Virus record (IMG/VR): IMGVR_UViG_3300019889_000023
Coordinates: 1 to 45,968 of that record
Source: a virus
Strand: one strand, 5' to 3'
DNA length: 45,968 nucleotides
A model generated the notes under the pieces. It was not told the DNA's origin, did no database searches, and saw nothing but the letters and a program-made list of their open reading frames with translations. Numbering within the stretch: the stretch's first letter is position 1; each line of letters begins with the position of its first letter. Of this stretch, positions 7,803 through 30,053 are shown in pieces. Both the position numbers and the translations under genes were made by a program.

Positions 7803-8216
7803 TTAACTGGCCGCGACATCGCGGCCAGTCTCTTGGACGATCGCCGCAATTTTCGCGACGACGCCCCTGTGTCCTTCGGTAAGAAGTTTGCTGATTTGGT
7901 CGAGCGCGGCACCGTCTCCCTCGTCAGCGACGACGACGCCCGGCTTCAAGATGTAGAAGTTCTGCACCGCTCCGCGCACGGGCTCCTGATGAGAGAGGGA
8001 GATCGCCTCGTATCCCAGCAAGACTTTGACGTGGTAGCTCACAAGGCTGACCGCCCGGTCGAAGTCGACGTTCCCACCGAACGGGTTCATCCCCAGCGCT
8101 TCGACCATTGTCTTCGGGCTGAGCGGCTTGGCGATCGCGTCCATTTGCAAAACCAATTCGTCCCGAAGGGGGTGCTGGTTCTTGCCCATTCTGTCTCGAT
8201 TGATTCGTTTCGGCAT
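7803..8216 (-). CDS. ArsR-like winged-helix regulator (copy A)
   Basis: The 137-residue protein has the pattern HPLR, then SPK, then VSYHVKVLLGYEAISL, then RGAVQNFY. The same order occurs in the 82-residue protein at 29039, so the two are related. The family resembles ArsR/HTH_20 regulators, with a recognition helix in VSYHV. No Cys-based metal site is visible. It is the second gene of the repressor operon, starting 8 bases after the repressor stop, and is likely made in the lysogen. Confidence 0.7.
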   Translation of the reverse strand: MPKRINRDRMGKNQHPLRDELVLQMDAIAKPLSPKTMVEALGMNPFGGNVDFDRAVSLVSYHVKVLLGYEAISLSHQEPVRGAVQNFYILKPGVVVADEGDGAALDQISKLLTEGHRGVVAKIAAIVQETGRDVAAS

Positions 8217-8224
8217 CGGAGCGG

Positions 8225-8638
8225 CTAGTGGTGGGCGGCAGCGTCCAGCCGCTCCGGGGTCACCACGCCCGGAGCCGGCGCGGTCAGGCCGAGTTCTGCC
8301 AGTAGCTCGGCCTTCAGCCGCGTGAACTTCAGATCCATCTCACGGCGAAGCCTCGCTTCGAGGGCGCGGAGGTCGGCGCGCTCTCTCCCCACGCGCACCG
8401 CCGGCCCCTCATCGCCGTAGAGGATCCAGGTCTTGGTGATCGTCTCGTCCGCCAGCTTGCGTTTGTAGAACCCCGCCACCCTTTCGTAGTTCGCTTCGCT
8501 GGTCTCGACCTCGCCGTTCTCCCAGGACTGGAAGGTCCGATAGGGCACGCCCATTTCCGCGGCGGCCTCGGCCTGGCTGAGGGCCAATCGCCCCCGCAAT
8601 CCCTTCAGTCGATTTTTGAGGGCGTCGAGGTCGATCAT
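8225..8638 (-). CDS. XRE-family repressor, probable immunity repressor
   Basis: With ATG at 8638 the protein has 137 residues. The helix-turn-helix lies at about residues 18-43 (LSQAEAAAEMGVPYRTFQSW), the hallmark of Cro/CI-type proteins. The C-terminal part is helical and could dimerise. It is the first gene of a minus-strand operon, divergent from the early operon, with repeated half-sites in between. This is the usual layout of a lysogenic switch. An open frame extends further upstream, but it runs through the control region and is not used. Confidence 0.8.
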   Translation of the reverse strand: MIDLDALKNRLKGLRGRLALSQAEAAAEMGVPYRTFQSWENGEVETSEANYERVAGFYKRKLADETITKTWILYGDEGPAVRVGRERADLRALEARLRREMDLKFTRLKAELLAELGLTAPAPGVVTPERLDAAAHH

Positions 8639-19776: not shown

Positions 19777-19812
19777 GTCTGGGCTATCTCCTGTGGACGA
19801 AGCTGTGAACCG

Positions 19813-19859: not shown

Positions 19860-20405
19860 GTGATTGCTGTGACCGAGACCCTGACTAGGTCGCGGCGGGA
19901 CTACACCGACCAGGAGATCAACGCTGGGCTGACGGCGATGGCGATCTGTTCGGGACACCGCGACCGCGCCCACGCCCTGCTCGAAGAACAGGAAATCCGC
20001 ATCCCCGCCTCGACGCTCAGCGAGTGGTGCCGGAAGACCAAGCTGGCGCTCTATGAACGGACCCGCCAGGAAGTCGCGCCGATGCTGAAGGCGCAGATGG
20101 CGGACATGCACCAGGAATTGGCGCAGACCGCCGGAGACCTTGAGCGCGAAGCCGTTTCCCGCCTCCGCGACCGGATGAAAGCCGACGAGGTCGAGACCAA
20201 GGATCTCCACGGCATCGCTCGAACCGCGGCAATTGCGACCGGCATCCACGGCGAGAAACATCTTCTCTACTCCGGCCAACCCACGCAGATCGTCCAGCGC
20301 GATGCGACCGAAGTTCTGCGCGAGCTGGAGACCCTGGGATACAGGCCCGAACTTATCGAGGGGACTGCGGAGGAGATGACGGTTGCTACTGCCGATGAGT
20401 CCTGA
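19860..20405 (+). CDS. Terminase-small-subunit-like HTH protein
   Basis: A 181-residue protein from GTG at 19860 (a second GTG at 19869 is possible). Residues 15-60 (TDQEINAGLTAMAIC, ASTLSEWCRKTK) form an HTH like those of small terminase subunits or related phage proteins. A long coiled coil follows (about 70-130). The tail is acidic. It lies 12 kb from the large terminase. That is unusual, so it could instead be a regulator with a similar HTH. Confidence 0.5.
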   Translation: MIAVTETLTRSRRDYTDQEINAGLTAMAICSGHRDRAHALLEEQEIRIPASTLSEWCRKTKLALYERTRQEVAPMLKAQMADMHQELAQTAGDLEREAVSRLRDRMKADEVETKDLHGIARTAAIATGIHGEKHLLYSGQPTQIVQRDATEVLRELETLGYRPELIEGTAEEMTVATADES

Positions 20406-20699
20406 TCGCCTAGATCCTTGGTTGATTCCTTGAGGCCAGTGTGGCGCATCGCGATACCCGGCGCAAGCCAGGCGTCAACCCCCGAAGGGGATCCCAAAGG
20501 GCAAGCGCGCCGAGGGCCGGAGAATCGCTTACAGAGCCGCTGTTTTCGCGATAGACTGCGCAAGCCATCGTTTAGTGGACTGTGGCCTGCGGTCTCGGGT
20601 TCCTCCAGAACCCGGGGCCGCGTTTTCGTGCAAAGGAAAGGCCCCCAGATCGGAGGCCCCCCCAAAACGTCGCGGTAGTTGGCGCCGCAAGCGGTGCTG
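20406..20699. other. Convergent non-coding region with leader-type motif
   Basis: No convincing gene. It contains the terminator at 20630-20658 and, beyond it on the minus strand, a strong hairpin (GGGTTC/GAACCC at about 20596-20618) followed by the heptamer AGTCCAC at 20581-20575. The layout of hairpin plus AGTCCAC is that of the leader elements further right, yet only a 52-codon frame (20568-20410) without ribosome site follows. A second small hairpin CCCCGAAGGGG is near 20481. This may be a leader whose gene was lost. Confidence 0.5.
20630..20658 (-). terminator. Intrinsic terminator of minus-strand small-gene operon
   Basis: On the minus strand GGCCTCC pairs with GGGGGCC (one G-T pair) around a short loop and is followed by TTTCCTTT. 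It lies 42 bases after the last gene of the operon. Confidence 0.6.
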
Positions 20700-20804
20700 T
20701 CAAGCGGCCAACGAGCAGATCCCGTAGAGCACCAGGACCACGGCGGCAATCACCAGGAATCCTTGTAGTGCTTCCAACGGCGTGTAGTCCTCATCCATTT
20801 TCAT
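20700..20804 (-). CDS. 34-residue membrane protein
   Basis: Acidic N-terminus (MKMDEDYTPLEA) then one hydrophobic segment (about residues 16-33). GAAATGAGG upstream can serve as ribosome site. Last gene of the operon, before the terminator. It may act at the host membrane; nothing more can be said. Confidence 0.6.
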   Translation of the reverse strand: MKMDEDYTPLEALQGFLVIAAVVLVLYGICSLAA

Positions 20805-20833
20805 CGCCTCATTTCTGCGGTAGTTAGCGCAAG

Positions 20834-20941
20834 CTATCGCGCTGACCGCTGATCGAACTTCCGATTGTGCCGATGGGCGACCACGGCCAGGGCGACATTC
20901 GCCCCGACCATGATCCCCAGGAATGCCAGCGCGCCGATCAT
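20834..20941 (-). CDS. 35-residue membrane protein
   Basis: The start overlaps the stop of the upstream gene (ATGA). Residues 1-22 are hydrophobic (Ala/Gly/Val/Leu), followed by a basic tail with RHRHNRK-like composition. Single-pass, N-out or N-in not decidable. Function unknown. Confidence 0.6.
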   Translation of the reverse strand: MIGALAFLGIMVGANVALAVVAHRHNRKFDQRSAR

Positions 20942-21360
20942 GCGGCCAACTGGTAGAGCCGCTGACGAGACAAGCCGAGCAGGTCCGCGATCCGGGTCAC
21001 TTCCCGCGTTCCTCTCGCCTCTTCTGCCAGCGCGGCAAGCTCCCGGTCTACCTTCACCCGGTCCCGCTCCAGCTTGGCGCGAGAAGCCGCCAGAGCCGCC
21101 GCACGTTCGGCCAGGGATTGAACCTTGACCGGACCGACCTTCGCCCGCCAGGCCATGACCCTCGGCGCTTCCGGTACCAACGGCAGGCCGTGGCGTCCCC
21201 GGATTTCATCGCTGATCGCCTGTATCCGATCATGCGCCGCCAACGCCGTCGCGATGCTCGCTTTCGGCTGTTTGATCATCTCCCGGTTCCGGTTCCGGAA
21301 TGCTTTGCTCGTGAACTCCGGGCCGGGGATGCGAGTCCCCGATATGTGACCTTGTCTCAT
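20938..21360 (-). CDS. Coiled-coil protein with C-terminal HTH
   Basis: ATG at 21360 is chosen because CTGGAGG lies 9 bases upstream and the AGTCCAC leader motif precedes it; an extended frame reads back through the tRNA-like leader and is not used. The 140-residue product is basic, with a coiled coil (about 85-118) and a resolvase-type HTH at the very end (VTRIADLLGLSRQRLYQLAA). Probably DNA-binding. Confidence 0.65.
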   Translation of the reverse strand: MRQGHISGTRIPGPEFTSKAFRNRNREMIKQPKASIATALAAHDRIQAISDEIRGRHGLPLVPEAPRVMAWRAKVGPVKVQSLAERAAALAASRAKLERDRVKVDRELAALAEEARGTREVTRIADLLGLSRQRLYQLAA

Positions 21361-21389
21361 CGCGCTACCTCCAGTAGTCGCATGCGTTT

Positions 21390-21454
21390 GTGGACTGCTC
21401 CGCCAGATGGCGGAAGGGACGCCCGGGAATCGAACCCGGGCAACTCCAGACGTC
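21390..21454 (-). ncRNA. Leader element 2: tRNA-like T-arm minihelix, hairpin, AGTCCAC
   Basis: On the minus strand, starting right after a stop codon: GGAC, a spacer with CTGGAGTT, a 7-bp stem GCCCGGG/CCCGGGC closing the canonical T-loop TTCGATT, then GTCC that can pair with GGAC. A hairpin CCGCC/GGCGG follows, then AGTCCAC (21396-21390) and the leader of the gene at 21360. It looks like the acceptor-T half of a tRNA without D and anticodon arms. Function unknown; see findings. Confidence 0.55.
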
Positions 21455-21826
21455 CTAGCTCGGGTGCTCGCGTCCAGTTTCGGCAAGGGCCGAATAGACC
21501 GCTTCCGCGACGTCGGCGGCGCTGGAGGCGTCGCGGACCGCGACCAACTCCAAATGGTCCATTGCGTCCGTGTCGGTCAACTTCGCGGCCATCGAACCGT
21601 CGTCGGGCTTGTCCGGAATCTCTTCGACGCTTCCGAGGTCGATGTCTCGATCTTCCTCGTTTTCCGGGCGCTCCGAGACAAACTCGGCGCTGCCCTCTTG
21701 CATCGCCTCATCGAGGAAATCGGACCGTTGCTCGGCGGAAAGCGCGTCCCATCCGTCCGGCTTCTCCACGCGCCACGTCTCGCGCAGGTCGGCCCGGCAA
21801 ACGCTTTCATACTCGATCTCGCTCAT
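21455..21826 (-). CDS. Acidic hypothetical protein
   Basis: A 123-residue protein, very acidic (long runs of E and D between residues 40 and 75) with a helical end. GAAAGG lies 7 bases before the ATG. No family recognised. Flanked on both sides by tRNA-like leader elements. Confidence 0.65.
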   Translation of the reverse strand: MSEIEYESVCRADLRETWRVEKPDGWDALSAEQRSDFLDEAMQEGSAEFVSERPENEEDRDIDLGSVEEIPDKPDDGSMAAKLTDTDAMDHLELVAVRDASSAADVAEAVYSALAETGREHPS

Positions 21827-21846
21827 TCTGGGTGCCTTTCGTTTAG

Positions 21847-21913
21847 GTGGACTGACTCCCGGGAAATCCGGGAAGGGACGCGCCGGAATCGAACCGGCGC
21901 AACTCCAGGCGCC
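21847..21913 (-). ncRNA. Leader element 3: tRNA-like T-arm minihelix, hairpin, AGTCCAC
   Basis: Same plan as element 2: GGGC, CTGGAGTT, a 7-bp stem GCGCCGG/CCGGCGC around TTCGATT, then GTCCCTTCC, a hairpin TCCCGG/CCGGGA and AGTCCAC (21853-21847). The stems differ from element 2 in sequence but keep pairing, and loop and flanks are identical. This argues for an RNA structure under selection. Confidence 0.55.
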
Positions 21914-22300
21914 CTAGCTGGCTTCCGTCTCGCGCTTGCTCATCTCGGCGGCGCGCTGTTCGGCGTCCCGCTCCGATTCGGCGGGGATGGCCTCGCCCGT
22001 GATCCCGTCGCGGATGATCCAACCGTCCAGAAGATGCGAGGCGAAGTAGCGCGGCTCGCCCTGGAGGATTTCTTTTCGGGTTTCTGCGTCCATTTTCGGG
22101 TCGGCCACCACTGCGACGGTAATCTCGAACGCAGCCGGTACATGTTCGCCGCTTACCCGCGTGGTTCCCGCGTGGCCTCCGACGACGAAGCGGACACGCT
22201 CCAGTACGTCGTCCAGACTGAGGCCGTCGTCCTGTTGATGTAGGTCGCCGTCAATCTCCTCGATTTGGAGGCTGTATCGGCGATTGGCACGGTTCGTCAT
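21914..22300 (-). CDS. Acidic hypothetical protein
   Basis: A 128-residue protein with a beta-rich middle (HVPAAFEITVAVVAD) and a charged helical end. A WIIRDGITGEAI stretch is typical of small beta domains. The leader has AAAGG before the ATG. Family unknown. Confidence 0.65.
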   Translation of the reverse strand: MTNRANRRYSLQIEEIDGDLHQQDDGLSLDDVLERVRFVVGGHAGTTRVSGEHVPAAFEITVAVVADPKMDAETRKEILQGEPRYFASHLLDGWIIRDGITGEAIPAESERDAEQRAAEMSKRETEAS

Positions 22301-22318
22301 TTCGCTTACCTTTCGTTA

Positions 22319-22379
22319 GTGGACTGATTCGAGCCCTGCGGCTCGACCACCCCCCGCGAACGGGGGACAGTCGAAACGC
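22319..22379 (-). ncRNA. Leader element 4: two-hairpin RNA and AGTCCAC
   Basis: On the minus strand: CGACTGT pairs with GTGGTCG around a CCCCC/GGGGG hairpin. A second hairpin CGAGCC-GCAG-GGCTCG shares bases with the first stem, so the two are partly exclusive. AGTCCAC (22325-22319) and a ribosome site follow. Elements 5 and 6 have the same plan with compensating changes. Confidence 0.6.
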
Positions 22380-22586
22380 TCAGGCGTTGAGCTTCCCGGC
22401 CAACTCCCGCGCTTGCCCTTCGCTCAGTGGCGGTAGGTCCTGCAGGCCGTGGCCATGGCGGCACACGCCCCAGCCGAGCGCCGGGAACTCGCGACCGGGA
22501 AACCGCTTCCGACGCTCTGCAATCGCGTGACGGTTGTTCTCGTCTAGGTCGATGGCGAAGTATTCGCCGACCTCAGCCGCGCTCAT
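22380..22586 (-). CDS. Small conserved protein, short paralogue
   Basis: A 68-residue protein nearly identical in most of its length to the C-terminal two thirds of the protein at 23712: VGEYFAIDLDENNR, FPGREFPALGWGVCRHGHG and LPPLSE are shared. It lacks the Cys-rich N-terminus of its partner. A CRHGHG motif could bind metal. The start overlaps the stop of the gene before it (ATGA). Confidence 0.65.
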   Translation of the reverse strand: MSAAEVGEYFAIDLDENNRHAIAERRKRFPGREFPALGWGVCRHGHGLQDLPPLSEGQARELAGKLNA

Positions 22587-23167
22587 TCGACCAACTCCGG
22601 GACAACCTCACGGGCGAACGCTTCCGCGACCTCCCGGTCCTCGCCGACCAGCTCGACCTCCGCGCTGCCCGACCACGAGTAGCGGTAGAGGACGCGGCGG
22701 ATCTCGTACGTGGTGAGCGTGTCGCCGTCCTGCGCTCGATCCTTTTCGGTGCGGCACTCGATCAGAATCCGATCATCCGGCCCGCCCGTGCCGAGGACGA
22801 TTTCAAACGTCGTCATCGTTTCGACGGCCAGCGGGAACTCGTGCAGCCGATCTTGCGCCTCTTGCTGAACGTCCCAACCCCCATCAGCGTCATCCTCTCC
22901 CGCCGCTGCGAGGTCTACCGCTTCCCGCTCGGCGCGGGACGAATCCTCGCCGTTCCCGATCTTGACCAGCACGGCCAGCCTGTCCAGCCTGCTTCGCATC
23001 GCTTCGCCGACCGCGTCGCTCGCGCAGGTCGGGTCGTAGTCGTCGCGGAACCCTTCCCGCGTGGCCTGCCTGCGGTACTCGTCTTTCTCGACCGGGCGCA
23101 GATTCTCCCAGTGCTTCCCGTCGTTCACGGACGCCAGTGAAGCGGCGCGTTCATCTCGTTTGCTCAT
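22583..23167 (-). CDS. Acidic hypothetical protein
   Basis: A 194-residue protein. Helical, charged N-terminal half with an acidic patch (AAAGEDDADGG), then a beta-rich part (TTFEIVLGTGGPDDRILIEC, TYEIRRVLYRYSWSG) and a final helix. I do not recognise a family. Leader element 5 precedes it. Confidence 0.65.
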   Translation of the reverse strand: MSKRDERAASLASVNDGKHWENLRPVEKDEYRRQATREGFRDDYDPTCASDAVGEAMRSRLDRLAVLVKIGNGEDSSRAEREAVDLAAAGEDDADGGWDVQQEAQDRLHEFPLAVETMTTFEIVLGTGGPDDRILIECRTEKDRAQDGDTLTTYEIRRVLYRYSWSGSAEVELVGEDREVAEAFAREVVPELVE

Positions 23168-23186
23168 GATTCCTGCTTTCTGTCTA

Positions 23187-23248
23187 GTGGACTTTCCGGA
23201 CCCTACGGCCCGACCATGCGTCGCCAGAGCGGCGCACAGTCGGAACGT
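23187..23248 (-). ncRNA. Leader element 5: two-hairpin RNA and AGTCCAC
   Basis: CCGACTGT pairs with ATGGTCGG around a GC-rich hairpin. The second hairpin is CGGGCC-GTAG-GGTCCG. AGTCCAC lies at 23193-23187. Compared with element 4 an A-T pair becomes G-C in both stems, so pairing is kept while sequence changes. Confidence 0.6.
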
Positions 23249-23629
23249 TCAGGCGCCCTCACCGGCTCGCCATCGCCAGGCGGGCCGCAGCTGGTCGTTA
23301 GCGCGCTCCAGCAGGACTGACGCAGTTTCCGCCTCGCCGTCCCGCTCGGCGACCAGGTCCCCGAGCGCGCGTTGTAGGACGCTCGCCTCGTATTCGGTCA
23401 GCGAGTAGGTGACCGTGTCCAGGTCGAGAACCTCCCCGCCCTCGGCGATCCCTTCCGCCGCCTTCGCCAGCGCGACCCCTTCGCCCTCGTCATCGTTCGC
23501 GATGGTCTCGACAACGTCAATGAGGAGATCGAACCGCTGCTCGTCGGCGTAGTTGTAGCTGCGATTGCGCATGTGCTGATCAATCTCGGCGCGACGTTCC
23601 CGCGCTTCCTCGACCGTGAGTCTGGCCAT
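23249..23629 (-). CDS. Acidic helical hypothetical protein
   Basis: A 126-residue protein, mostly helical, rich in Glu, Ala and Asp (LTVEEARERRAEIDQHM, then VVETIANDDEGEGVALAKAAEG). No family recognised. The leader has GAGGG before the ATG. Confidence 0.65.
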   Translation of the reverse strand: MARLTVEEARERRAEIDQHMRNRSYNYADEQRFDLLIDVVETIANDDEGEGVALAKAAEGIAEGGEVLDLDTVTYSLTEYEASVLQRALGDLVAERDGEAETASVLLERANDQLRPAWRWRAGEGA

Positions 23630-23650
23630 GATTATCCCTCGTTTCGTCTA

Positions 23651-23711
23651 GTGGACTTACCGGGCTGATGCCCGACCATCCCCCACCGTGAAGCGGGAGA
23701 CAGTCGGGAAC
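23651..23711 (-). ncRNA. Leader element 6: two-hairpin RNA and AGTCCAC
   Basis: CCCGACTGT pairs with ATGGTCGGG around an inner CTCCC/GGGGA-type hairpin. The second hairpin is CGGGC-ATCA-GCCCG and overlaps the 3' strand of the first. AGTCCAC lies at 23657-23651. Shares CGACTGT and TGGTCG with elements 4 and 5. Confidence 0.6.
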
Positions 23712-23993
23712 CTAGGCGTTGAGCTTATCCGCGAGATGGCGAGCCTGAACCTCACTCAGCGGCGGCAAGTCCTGCAAGCCGTGACCGTGGCGACAGACGC
23801 CCCAGCCGAGCGCCGGGAACTCACGGCCCGGAAAGCGATCCCGGCGCGCGTCGAGCGCAGCCCGGTTGTTCTCGTCAAGGTCGATGGCGAAGTATTCGCC
23901 CACCTTCACGGTCGTTTCGGCGAGACGGTCGGTCCGACAGGCCTTGCAATAGCAATTCGCGCTATGGCGCGTGGTGTCAACGGTTCTACTCAT
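23712..23993 (-). CDS. Cys-rich conserved protein, long paralogue
   Basis: A 93-residue protein, first in the minus-strand operon. It starts with HSANCYCKACRTDR, a possible metal-binding CxCxxC, then the domain shared with the gene at 22380 (VGEYFAIDLDENNR ... GVCRHGHGLQ). An ACTGGAGG site precedes the ATG. Probably a zinc protein of unknown role. Confidence 0.65.
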   Translation of the reverse strand: MSRTVDTTRHSANCYCKACRTDRLAETTVKVGEYFAIDLDENNRAALDARRDRFPGREFPALGWGVCRHGHGLQDLPPLSEVQARHLADKLNA

Positions 23994-24026
23994 CTCGAAA
24001 CCTCCAGTTTCGGACTACGTTTATCA

Positions 24027-24069
24027 GTGGACTGTCAATCAAGGTAGACGTTCTCCCCCGACCTGTCAA
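24027..24069 (-). promoter_or_regulatory. Promoter of minus-strand operon and AGTCCAC copy 7
   Basis: On the minus strand TTGACA (24069-24064), 17-base spacer, TACCTT (24046-24041). The expected transcript start, 6-8 bases downstream, falls just before AGTCCAC (24033-24027). A second TTGACAG follows the -10, and TACCTNGNTTGACAG occurs twice in tandem, perhaps an operator. This is the only AGTCCAC copy with a promoter in place of a hairpin. Confidence 0.65.
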
Positions 24070-24566
24070 CCAGGTACACACCTTGGATGGCGACCAGGTA
24101 GCGCCGTTTGGGTCAGATCGACGCCTGCGCTTTGGTCGGAGATGCCCCGAATCCCGTCCGCTGTTACCCCACCCAGCAGCACTCGGGAGCAGTACTGACA
24201 AGAGCAGTAGGCGAAGCAGAGCGCGAAGGCTTTGGAGTACGGGCGTCGTCAAGGGAGCTTTCCGCGAGCTTTCCGCGAAGCGTCCGCGTCCACCGAAGTA
24301 AACGCGCAAGGCTTTGGTTGCGCCTCAGGCACGAATCAGAGTGAGTACCAGCTAGTCAGGCTGGCAGCTGAGCATCCTCTCTCCCTGCATTACAAGCGGG
24401 ATTGCGCTGCGTTGAGCAGTGAGCGTGAGGGTCGAACGGGGACCGAACAGGGACAGCGATCCCGATCCCCTCCAGGCACAGGGGGGGAGGGGAGGGGCTG
24501 ACCGCCGCAGGCGTGGATATATCTATATAGGCACCGCTCATATATCTCCTCCCCCAAAGGCAATTT
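24070..24566. other. Long divergent intergenic region with short repeats
   Basis: No gene is seen. An 11-base unit GAGCTTTCCGC is repeated in tandem at 24255 and 24266, with a degenerate third copy to 24287. CGCRAAGGCTTTGG-like repeats lie at 24226 and 24308, and ACCAGGTA repeats near 24070 and 24091. A G-rich run (24481-24497) is followed by an AT-rich island GATATATCTATATAGG at 24516-24531, which may contain the -10 box of the plus-strand operon. Possible control region or second origin candidate. Confidence 0.45.
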
Positions 24567-29955: not shown

Positions 29956-30026
29956 TCCGGGGTCGTCCAGCGGCAAGACACGGGGCTCTGAACCCCGGAA
30001 CGGAGGTTCGATCCCTCCCCCCGGAT
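29956..30026 (+). tRNA. tRNA-Gln(CTG)
   Basis: Acceptor TCCGGGG/CCCCGGA, short D stem GTC/GAC, anticodon stem CGGGG/CCCCG with loop CTCTGAA (anticodon CTG, T at 33), T arm GGAGG-TTCGATC-CCTCC, discriminator T. No CCA encoded. It precedes the late operon by 27 bases on the same strand, so it may be cut from the late transcript. Confidence 0.85.
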
Positions 30027-30053
30027 CTGACGACCGATCAACGAAAGGACACC

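Follow-up and report, generated by a model that had tools for sequence, protein, structure and literature searches.

Polycistronic RNA in mitochondria is punctuated by tRNAs, which lie between coding genes, where RNase P and RNase Z can cut. In phage T7, RNase III sites lie between the early genes, and the early region includes an antirestriction gene. RNase P also acts on substrates other than tRNA, including the C4 RNA of P1/P7, the gene 32 mRNA of T4 and polycistronic mRNAs (PMC11143913). These are precedents on phage RNA and operon mRNA, but they are single cases and not a repeated intergenic family. The nearest described pattern to the one analyzed here is that of the SAS and extended SAS (ESAS) of cluster K mycobacteriophages. 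The start-associated sequences (SAS) are a short repeat found just before the starts of non-structural genes, about half of them with an inverted repeat upstream (PMC3203893, PMC11373665), and in ESAS, SigA-like hexamers are spaced 17-18 bp apart within the inverted repeats (PMC11373665). Such hexamers were also present inside the ESAS repeats of the TM4 sequence that we examined.

The elements described here lie between the genes of a phage operon and come in two types, A and B, of which type A is tRNA-like. Like SAS/ESAS, they are found upstream of a start-associated sequence. However, ESAS repeats carry promoter hexamers and keep their sequence, whereas our elements lack such hexamers and keep their pairing through changes on both sides of the stem. 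Furthermore, the SAS consensus, GGGATAGGAGCCC, does not match the leaders found here (AGTCCAC..ACGAAAGG and similar). Identity with ESAS was thus rejected on the basis of the published descriptions (PMC3203893, PMC11373665), the TM4 sequence and the lack of promoter hexamers in our elements; the 17-bp palindromes of cluster O were also considered. The likeness to mitochondrial punctuation lies in tRNA-shaped RNA between coding genes, with possible RNase P/RNase Z sites, but the elements here have no anticodon arm, are not adaptor tRNAs and belong to a phage operon, and their cleavage is inferred. T7 is similar in having hairpins in the gaps of an early operon and an antirestriction gene among the operon genes, yet type B is shorter and differs in its conserved sequence, and there are no tRNA-like elements in the T7 gaps.

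Results

We analyzed a virus record of 45,968 bases (hereafter, the window), read as a soil actinobacterial phage. Its terminase has distant relatives in Arthrobacter phages and in other phages. Both element types were found in only one cellular assembly, the Actinomycetota MAG SZAS-14, where the contig concerned carries a gene for a relative of the window terminase as well. Based on this contig and the terminase relatives, the host of the window phage is probably an actinobacterium.

The minus strand of the window carries an operon of small genes of no known family, extending from 24,050 to about 20,900. Gene 1 (23712..23993, 93 amino acids, no known family) provided the route to related phages, with L004, L005 and L006 coming from a scan for its relatives and L015 and L016 added by a gene 1 profile. 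It is followed by gene 2 (23249..23629, 126 amino acids) and gene 3 (22583..23167, 194 amino acids), both also of no known family, which lie behind the first and second type B copies, respectively. Gene 4 (22380..22586, 68 amino acids) is paralogous to gene 1; it and the end of gene 3 overlap (ATGA), with no element between them. Gene 5 (21914..22300, 128 amino acids) lies behind the third type B copy, gene 6 (21455..21826, 123 amino acids) behind a type A element, and the last is gene 7 (20938..21360, 140 amino acids), all on the minus strand. A 130-amino-acid relative of gene 7 in contig C94 of SZAS-14 (L276) has a weak match to a resolvase-type HTH and is likewise found 3' of a type A element. 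The two paralogues at 22380-22586 and 23712-23993 (68 and 93 amino acids) have in common a conserved domain, EYFAIDLDENNR...GWGVCRHGHGLQDLPPLSE, whose function is unknown and to which other N-termini are fused in relatives. Near the operon end, at 20451-20834 on the minus strand, four copies of GCTTGCG-N-AYCGC were found within 400 bases (0.26 expected); these repeats are possibly operator-like.

Three of the gaps in this operon contain type B elements, on the minus strand at 23651..23711 (copy 1), 23187..23248 (copy 2, upstream of gene 3) and 22319..22379 (copy 3, upstream of gene 5), with the sequence that the original prediction had reported. In copy 1, a long hairpin, CGACTGT...ATGGTCG, is followed by a possible second hairpin (GGGC-ATCA-GCCC) and AGTCCAC. 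CGACTGT-N8..25-TGGTCG matches the window at exactly three places, compared with 0.03 expected from dinucleotide-preserving shuffles. Each copy is preceded by a stop codon (3/3) and followed by AGTCCAC, a ribosome site and then ATG. The proposed pairing of CGACTGT with RTGGTCG around an inner hairpin also holds, and since the seven outer pairs run directly into the inner stem, the first hairpin is best described as one stem of about 13-15 pairs. Folding z-scores for the three copies were -4.5, -2.2 and -2.9. The second hairpin, predicted to have 5-6 bp, stood only in part: it can form in some copies, but with only four pairs unless bases are shared. RTGGTCG ends in the CG with which CGAGCC begins, and these two shared bases mean that both stems can never be full length together. 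In the minimum-energy folds of the copies at 22319 and 23651 the first stem is extended and the second hairpin unformed, while in those of the copy at 23187 and three relatives it is formed. The second hairpin is thus the less certain part of type B. Taken alone, AGTCCAC shows only mild enrichment in the window (10 versus 4.6), and what is notable about it is not its count but its position before starts in this operon.

The three window copies are by themselves thin evidence, and the case for type B depends on its relatives in L005, L015, L276 and L285/L288. The element is present in L005 and L015, and a covariance model (R2) built from these and the window copies, five in all, found a copy on which it had not been trained in L276, with E = 5.1e-20. 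A targeted pattern detected type B in two further virus records, L285 and L288, in which the element is identical. Homologues, whose absence would have counted against the prediction, were thus found outside the window in four phage lineages or records. Pairing holds in 95.7% of the cells when all seven distinct copies are counted, and six pairs are changed on both sides. Covariation was 0.42, above all 500 shuffles (0.165 +/- 0.036), and at most 0.126 in slid-partner controls, in line with the claim that pairing is kept while bases change. The outer CGACU/UGGUCG is invariant, and the variation lies in the inner stem. Since the two-sided changes fall in a few groups of related sequences, independent events are fewer than these counts. 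The covariation and the homologues nevertheless support a selected RNA family, though its role as a leader RNA is at most inferred. As the original prediction supposed, no described family was recovered: there was no Rfam 15 match at or above the gathering score, and sub-threshold Rfam matches in the element region were to unrelated families, apart from mascRNA, which is itself tRNA-like. Type B had no match in cultured Gordonia phages, nor in phage and plasmid collections by DNA similarity search. Eight matches to a strict type B plus AGTCCAC pattern over IMG/VR were attributed to chance, those examined having neither copies nor leaders, and among the matches listed for a looser pattern, only loci already known fold and have a leader. 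Before the ArdA gene of L005, at 8160-8240, lies a related but different hairpin, CTCTAGCCGCG...CGCGGATAGAG, followed by GAGCC-GACA-GGCTC, which is possibly a third element type.

Two further gaps of the window operon contain, instead of type B, a tRNA-like minihelix (type A), consisting of an acceptor stem of 6-7 pairs, a (T)GG linker and a T-arm with the loop TTCGAYY, but no anticodon arm. The first (21876..21914, minus strand) has an acceptor, a CTGGAGTTGC linker and the T-arm GCCGG-TTCGATT-CCGGC, with a second hairpin, CCCGG-ATTT-CCGGG, at 21857..21873. The second (21417..21455, minus strand) has GGACGT...GCGTCC and the T-arm CCGGG-TTCGATT-CCCGG, with a second hairpin, TCCGCC-ATCT-GGCGGA, at 21399..21414. 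Each begins with the final G of the TAG stop codon upstream of it, that of gene 5 and of gene 6, respectively. A plain hairpin of 15 pairs at 20588..20622 (minus strand), followed by ACAGTCCACTAAACG-ATG, is likely a further member of the series, with low confidence.

Type A was also seen in L004, L006, L015 and L016, and a pattern search located it in further IMG/VR records, amounting to over 20 virus records, between genes. A model of 24 copies (R1) gave at least one match in 22 of the 23 records searched, some of them by construction and a few weak; 14 of these 23 records encode a relative of the window terminase and nine had no terminase match, several of the nine being short fragments. In the 24 copies 95.7% of pair cells are paired, 55 cells are changed on both sides, and covariation is 0.525 versus 0.140 +/- 0.023. 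The absence of R1 matches at E <= 1e-5 from 298 other genomes of the class of SZAS-14 indicates that type A belongs to, or travels with, phages. The minimum-energy fold of the window type A copies, one long hairpin that uses the linker, was rejected: across the 24 copies, three pairs of the T-stem carry changes on both sides and yet are always paired (100%).

Of the features of tRNA (RF00005), type A has the acceptor stem and a TTCRANN T-loop closed by G-C, neither of them shared by type B, which has no T-loop. It lacks the anticodon arm and the full cloverleaf, with a linker of about 8-20 nt in their place. The 3' strand of T-arm plus acceptor is 11-12 nt long in window-type copies, as in tRNA. 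ARAGORN and Rfam made no calls at the window, Gordonia or L276 elements (ARAGORN: none in L279, L280 or L276), and one IMG/VR element (L158) was called as an odd tRNA-???. The tRNA-like domain of tmRNA and mascRNA/menRNA (RF01684) are alike in having an acceptor and T-arm with the D and anticodon arms reduced or absent, but type A has no tag peptide or lncRNA context, and the mascRNA matches at two type A regions were weak, far below the gathering score. Abundant GTCTGTTTAACTAG...GGTTCGACTCC matches that appeared to be another family were ordinary tRNA genes.

Several other loci were noted during these searches. L138 and L191, from another lineage, have weaker, similar tRNA-like elements flanked by TGGTTG and ACTACCGGC, with the leader GAGAGAGAGGATAG. 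One compact tRNA-like element with a CTTGGAG linker was found in each of L163 and L213, which have no terminase match to the window. In the window itself, at 29956-30027 on the plus strand, a full tRNA-Gln (CTG) stands immediately before a small gene and is followed by GATCAACGAAAGGACACC-ATG; this is a complete tRNA in the slot held elsewhere by tRNA-like elements. At 9046-9092 of L016, a type A element breaks an open frame without a stop, while the homologous gene of L004 is uninterrupted there, so that this locus looks like an inserted element-plus-gene unit.

Cultured Gordonia phages were reached by BLAST with one type A element. One gap after another among the far-right genes of Cafasso and Morgana contains a tRNA-like element, a second hairpin and the leader ACCCAACA or similar, and in VanLee the tRNA-like layout was found in 12 of the 12 gaps examined. 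The layout is also present in Mycobacterium phage MrMiyagi, in 6/6 examined gaps of about 100 nt, the T-loop being intact in five and degenerate in one. Pairing was counted directly over 23 elements from these Gordonia and Mycobacterium phages and not from the alignment, in which the 5' acceptor was misplaced: 98.7% of acceptor and T-stem cells are paired, and covariation is 0.683 versus 0.137 +/- 0.025. The linker contains GG in all 23 and, in several, presents it in the loop of a small, D-arm-like hairpin. The distance from T-loop to discriminator is 12 nt in 20 of the elements and 11 nt in the other three, as in tRNA. None is annotated as RNA in the phage records, and in a literature search, with most subscription journals outside its reach, no account of intergenic tRNA-like elements in phages of this kind was found. 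An extra hairpin, GCGCGCAAGAGGGTAGCGC, stands between linker and T-arm at 2514-2635 of MrMiyagi (L289), in the position of the anticodon or variable arm of tRNA.

Types A and B are thus the two occupants of one slot. It opens with a stop codon and the structured element; a second hairpin follows, though not in all cases, and then come the leader, the ribosome site and ATG. The two types share this slot in the window operon, in L015 (B then A) and in L276 (B, A, A). In 27 of 28 type A copies of the IMG/VR kind, an open frame at least 51 codons long terminates at the element, its stop codon sharing its last base or bases with the 5' end of the acceptor. This proportion is inflated, many loci having been found by a pattern beginning with CTAG, though the open frame is not there by construction. 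In the Gordonia phages, most stop codons are a few bases upstream of the element. The ArdA antirestriction gene lies directly 3' of type B in L276 and of the related hairpin in L005, which indicates that element types have been exchanged before the same gene. Its presence suggests early genes directed against host defence; the window's own genes have no assigned function.

The leader, in the window of the form AGTCCAC...ACGAAAGG, is start-associated, and the original prediction missed that it also stands without an element directly behind the promoter-like sequence of the operon. The AGTCCAC of the first gene (24027..24033, minus strand) has no hairpin element and begins 7 nt after the -10 hexamer of a putative promoter (24041..24069, minus strand; TTGACA-N17-TACCTT), about where transcription would begin if that promoter is real. 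Its second hexamer is weak, matching TANNNT only, and a strict promoter scan of 20300-24300 reported no promoter-like site, this one included. The first-gene leader of L276 (ATCCACTRGA / ATCCACTAGA) is likewise behind TTGACA. About 20 copies of the leader are present in Cafasso, and only about half come with a tRNA-like element, which the leader therefore does not require. Taken together, the copies behind a promoter-like sequence and those without an element indicate a start-associated sequence in its own right, with the element standing where a promoter may stand. We also considered, by inspection, whether AGTCCAC pairs with the TGG in the elements, and abandoned the idea because it fails for other leaders. 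Elsewhere in the window, at 19793-19798 on the minus strand, GTCCACAGGAG precedes a start codon behind TTGACA-N17-TTTACT, placing the leader motif after a second promoter-like sequence.

Discussion

Our findings are best explained, in a judgment that we regard as evenly poised, by cis-acting RNA elements that punctuate the mRNA of an early or accessory phage operon, probably through mRNA processing or insulation. What we observed is where they lie, how they fold and covary, that they recur in other phages and that the types are exchanged before genes of the same kind; the mechanism is inferred. Each element lies between the stop of one small gene and the leader of the next, which would be the place of the promoter at the first gene. 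Most likely the transcript would be cut at the elements, or neighboring messages would at least be insulated there. Host tRNA-processing enzymes are suggested as the readers by the tRNA features and measured length of type A, which would undergo an RNase Z-type cut after the acceptor stem and possibly an RNase P cut on the 5' side. Type B might be cut by a double-strand-specific or other host nuclease, and the same role is inferred for it from the slot that it shares with type A. Such a cut would leave the upstream message with a protective structure (a cap) at its end, and the downstream one would start close to AGTCCAC, the leader that the primary transcript also has. This more specific version, in which actinobacteriophages place anticodon-less tRNA mimics or their type B substitutes in operon gaps and host tRNA-maturation nucleases thereby cut the polycistronic RNA into single-gene messages with the leader of the primary transcript, is put forward tentatively, as a possibility short of probable.

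Several observations weigh against punctuation by cleavage. In the absence of transcript data, neither transcription through the region nor cleavage has been observed, and the cutting, the enzyme and the equal role of the two types remain inferences. The overlap of the acceptor with the stop codon means that an RNase P cut would break the stop, arguing, in the lineage of the window, against RNase P and in favor of 3'-side cleavage or none. Type B has no T-loop, and as an RNase III site its stem of 13-15 pairs is short; a further 4-5 pairs may be stacked on it coaxially. In addition, about half of the Cafasso leaders have no element, and the second promoter hexamer is weak.

The main rival explanation does without cutting and invokes insulation of translation. 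The elements would act as translational insulators or start regulators, at which terminating ribosomes leave or the next site stays open, giving each gene a fresh start, and the leader or hairpin may be recognized by an RNA-binding protein of phage or host origin. The operon genes either overlap (22583/22586) or have an element between them, and a leader and Shine-Dalgarno sequence follow every element, as such a role would have it; the start-associated sequences of cluster K have also been suggested to act in translation initiation (PMC3203893). Yet any stable hairpin would suffice for insulation, and the invariant CGACU/UGGUCG, the tRNA elbow and the length ruler exceed that requirement, for which reason we consider this explanation rather unlikely, though far from dismissed.

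Different genes behind near-identical elements (L004, L006, L160, L167), different elements before ArdA in L276 and L005, and the frame in L016 that continues without a stop across its element could instead reflect DNA-level recombination boundaries, structured junctions for cassette exchange comparable to attC-type sites or to boundary sequences that are conserved. However, the compensatory changes seen in all stems, together with the conserved T-loop, require selection acting on a strand that folds and has tRNA features, and the layout is oriented with transcription, leader and start being always downstream, which makes this improbable. We give very little weight to transcription attenuators, terminators or antiterminator RNAs of the HK022 put-like kind. 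Adjacent hairpins in an early-type operon, with a shared stretch that would permit alternative folds, are compatible with them, but there is no T run on the minus strand after any of the five main elements, which are therefore not intrinsic terminators, and the copies lie between genes, with none in the promoter-proximal leader. Promoter-operator elements at which a phage repressor binds DNA, as in the cluster K ESAS, share the site upstream of a start-associated sequence and have imperfect inverted repeats of similar length (PMC3203893), but ESAS hold SigA-like hexamers inside their repeats (PMC11373665; TM4 sequence), the strict scan found none in 20300-24300, and pairing kept through letter changes is not needed by a DNA operator, so that this explanation is barely tenable.

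Punctuation of the operon mRNA thus remains our preferred explanation, and it extends beyond the three copies from which the analysis began. The original prediction missed that type B is one variant of a wider slot, filled by type A in the same operon and in many relatives. As the layout recurs gap after gap, unannotated, in cultured, tractable phages of M. smegmatis and Gordonia, the question is directly testable. The elements mark the boundaries of small accessory genes, antirestriction genes included, and so offer a handle for finding such genes. Even if the RNA is not cut, they constitute a widespread class of structured RNA that has been missed by gene finders and Rfam. If it is cut, these phages would be using host tRNA-processing enzymes to produce single-gene messages, a bacterial parallel to the tRNA punctuation of mitochondria.
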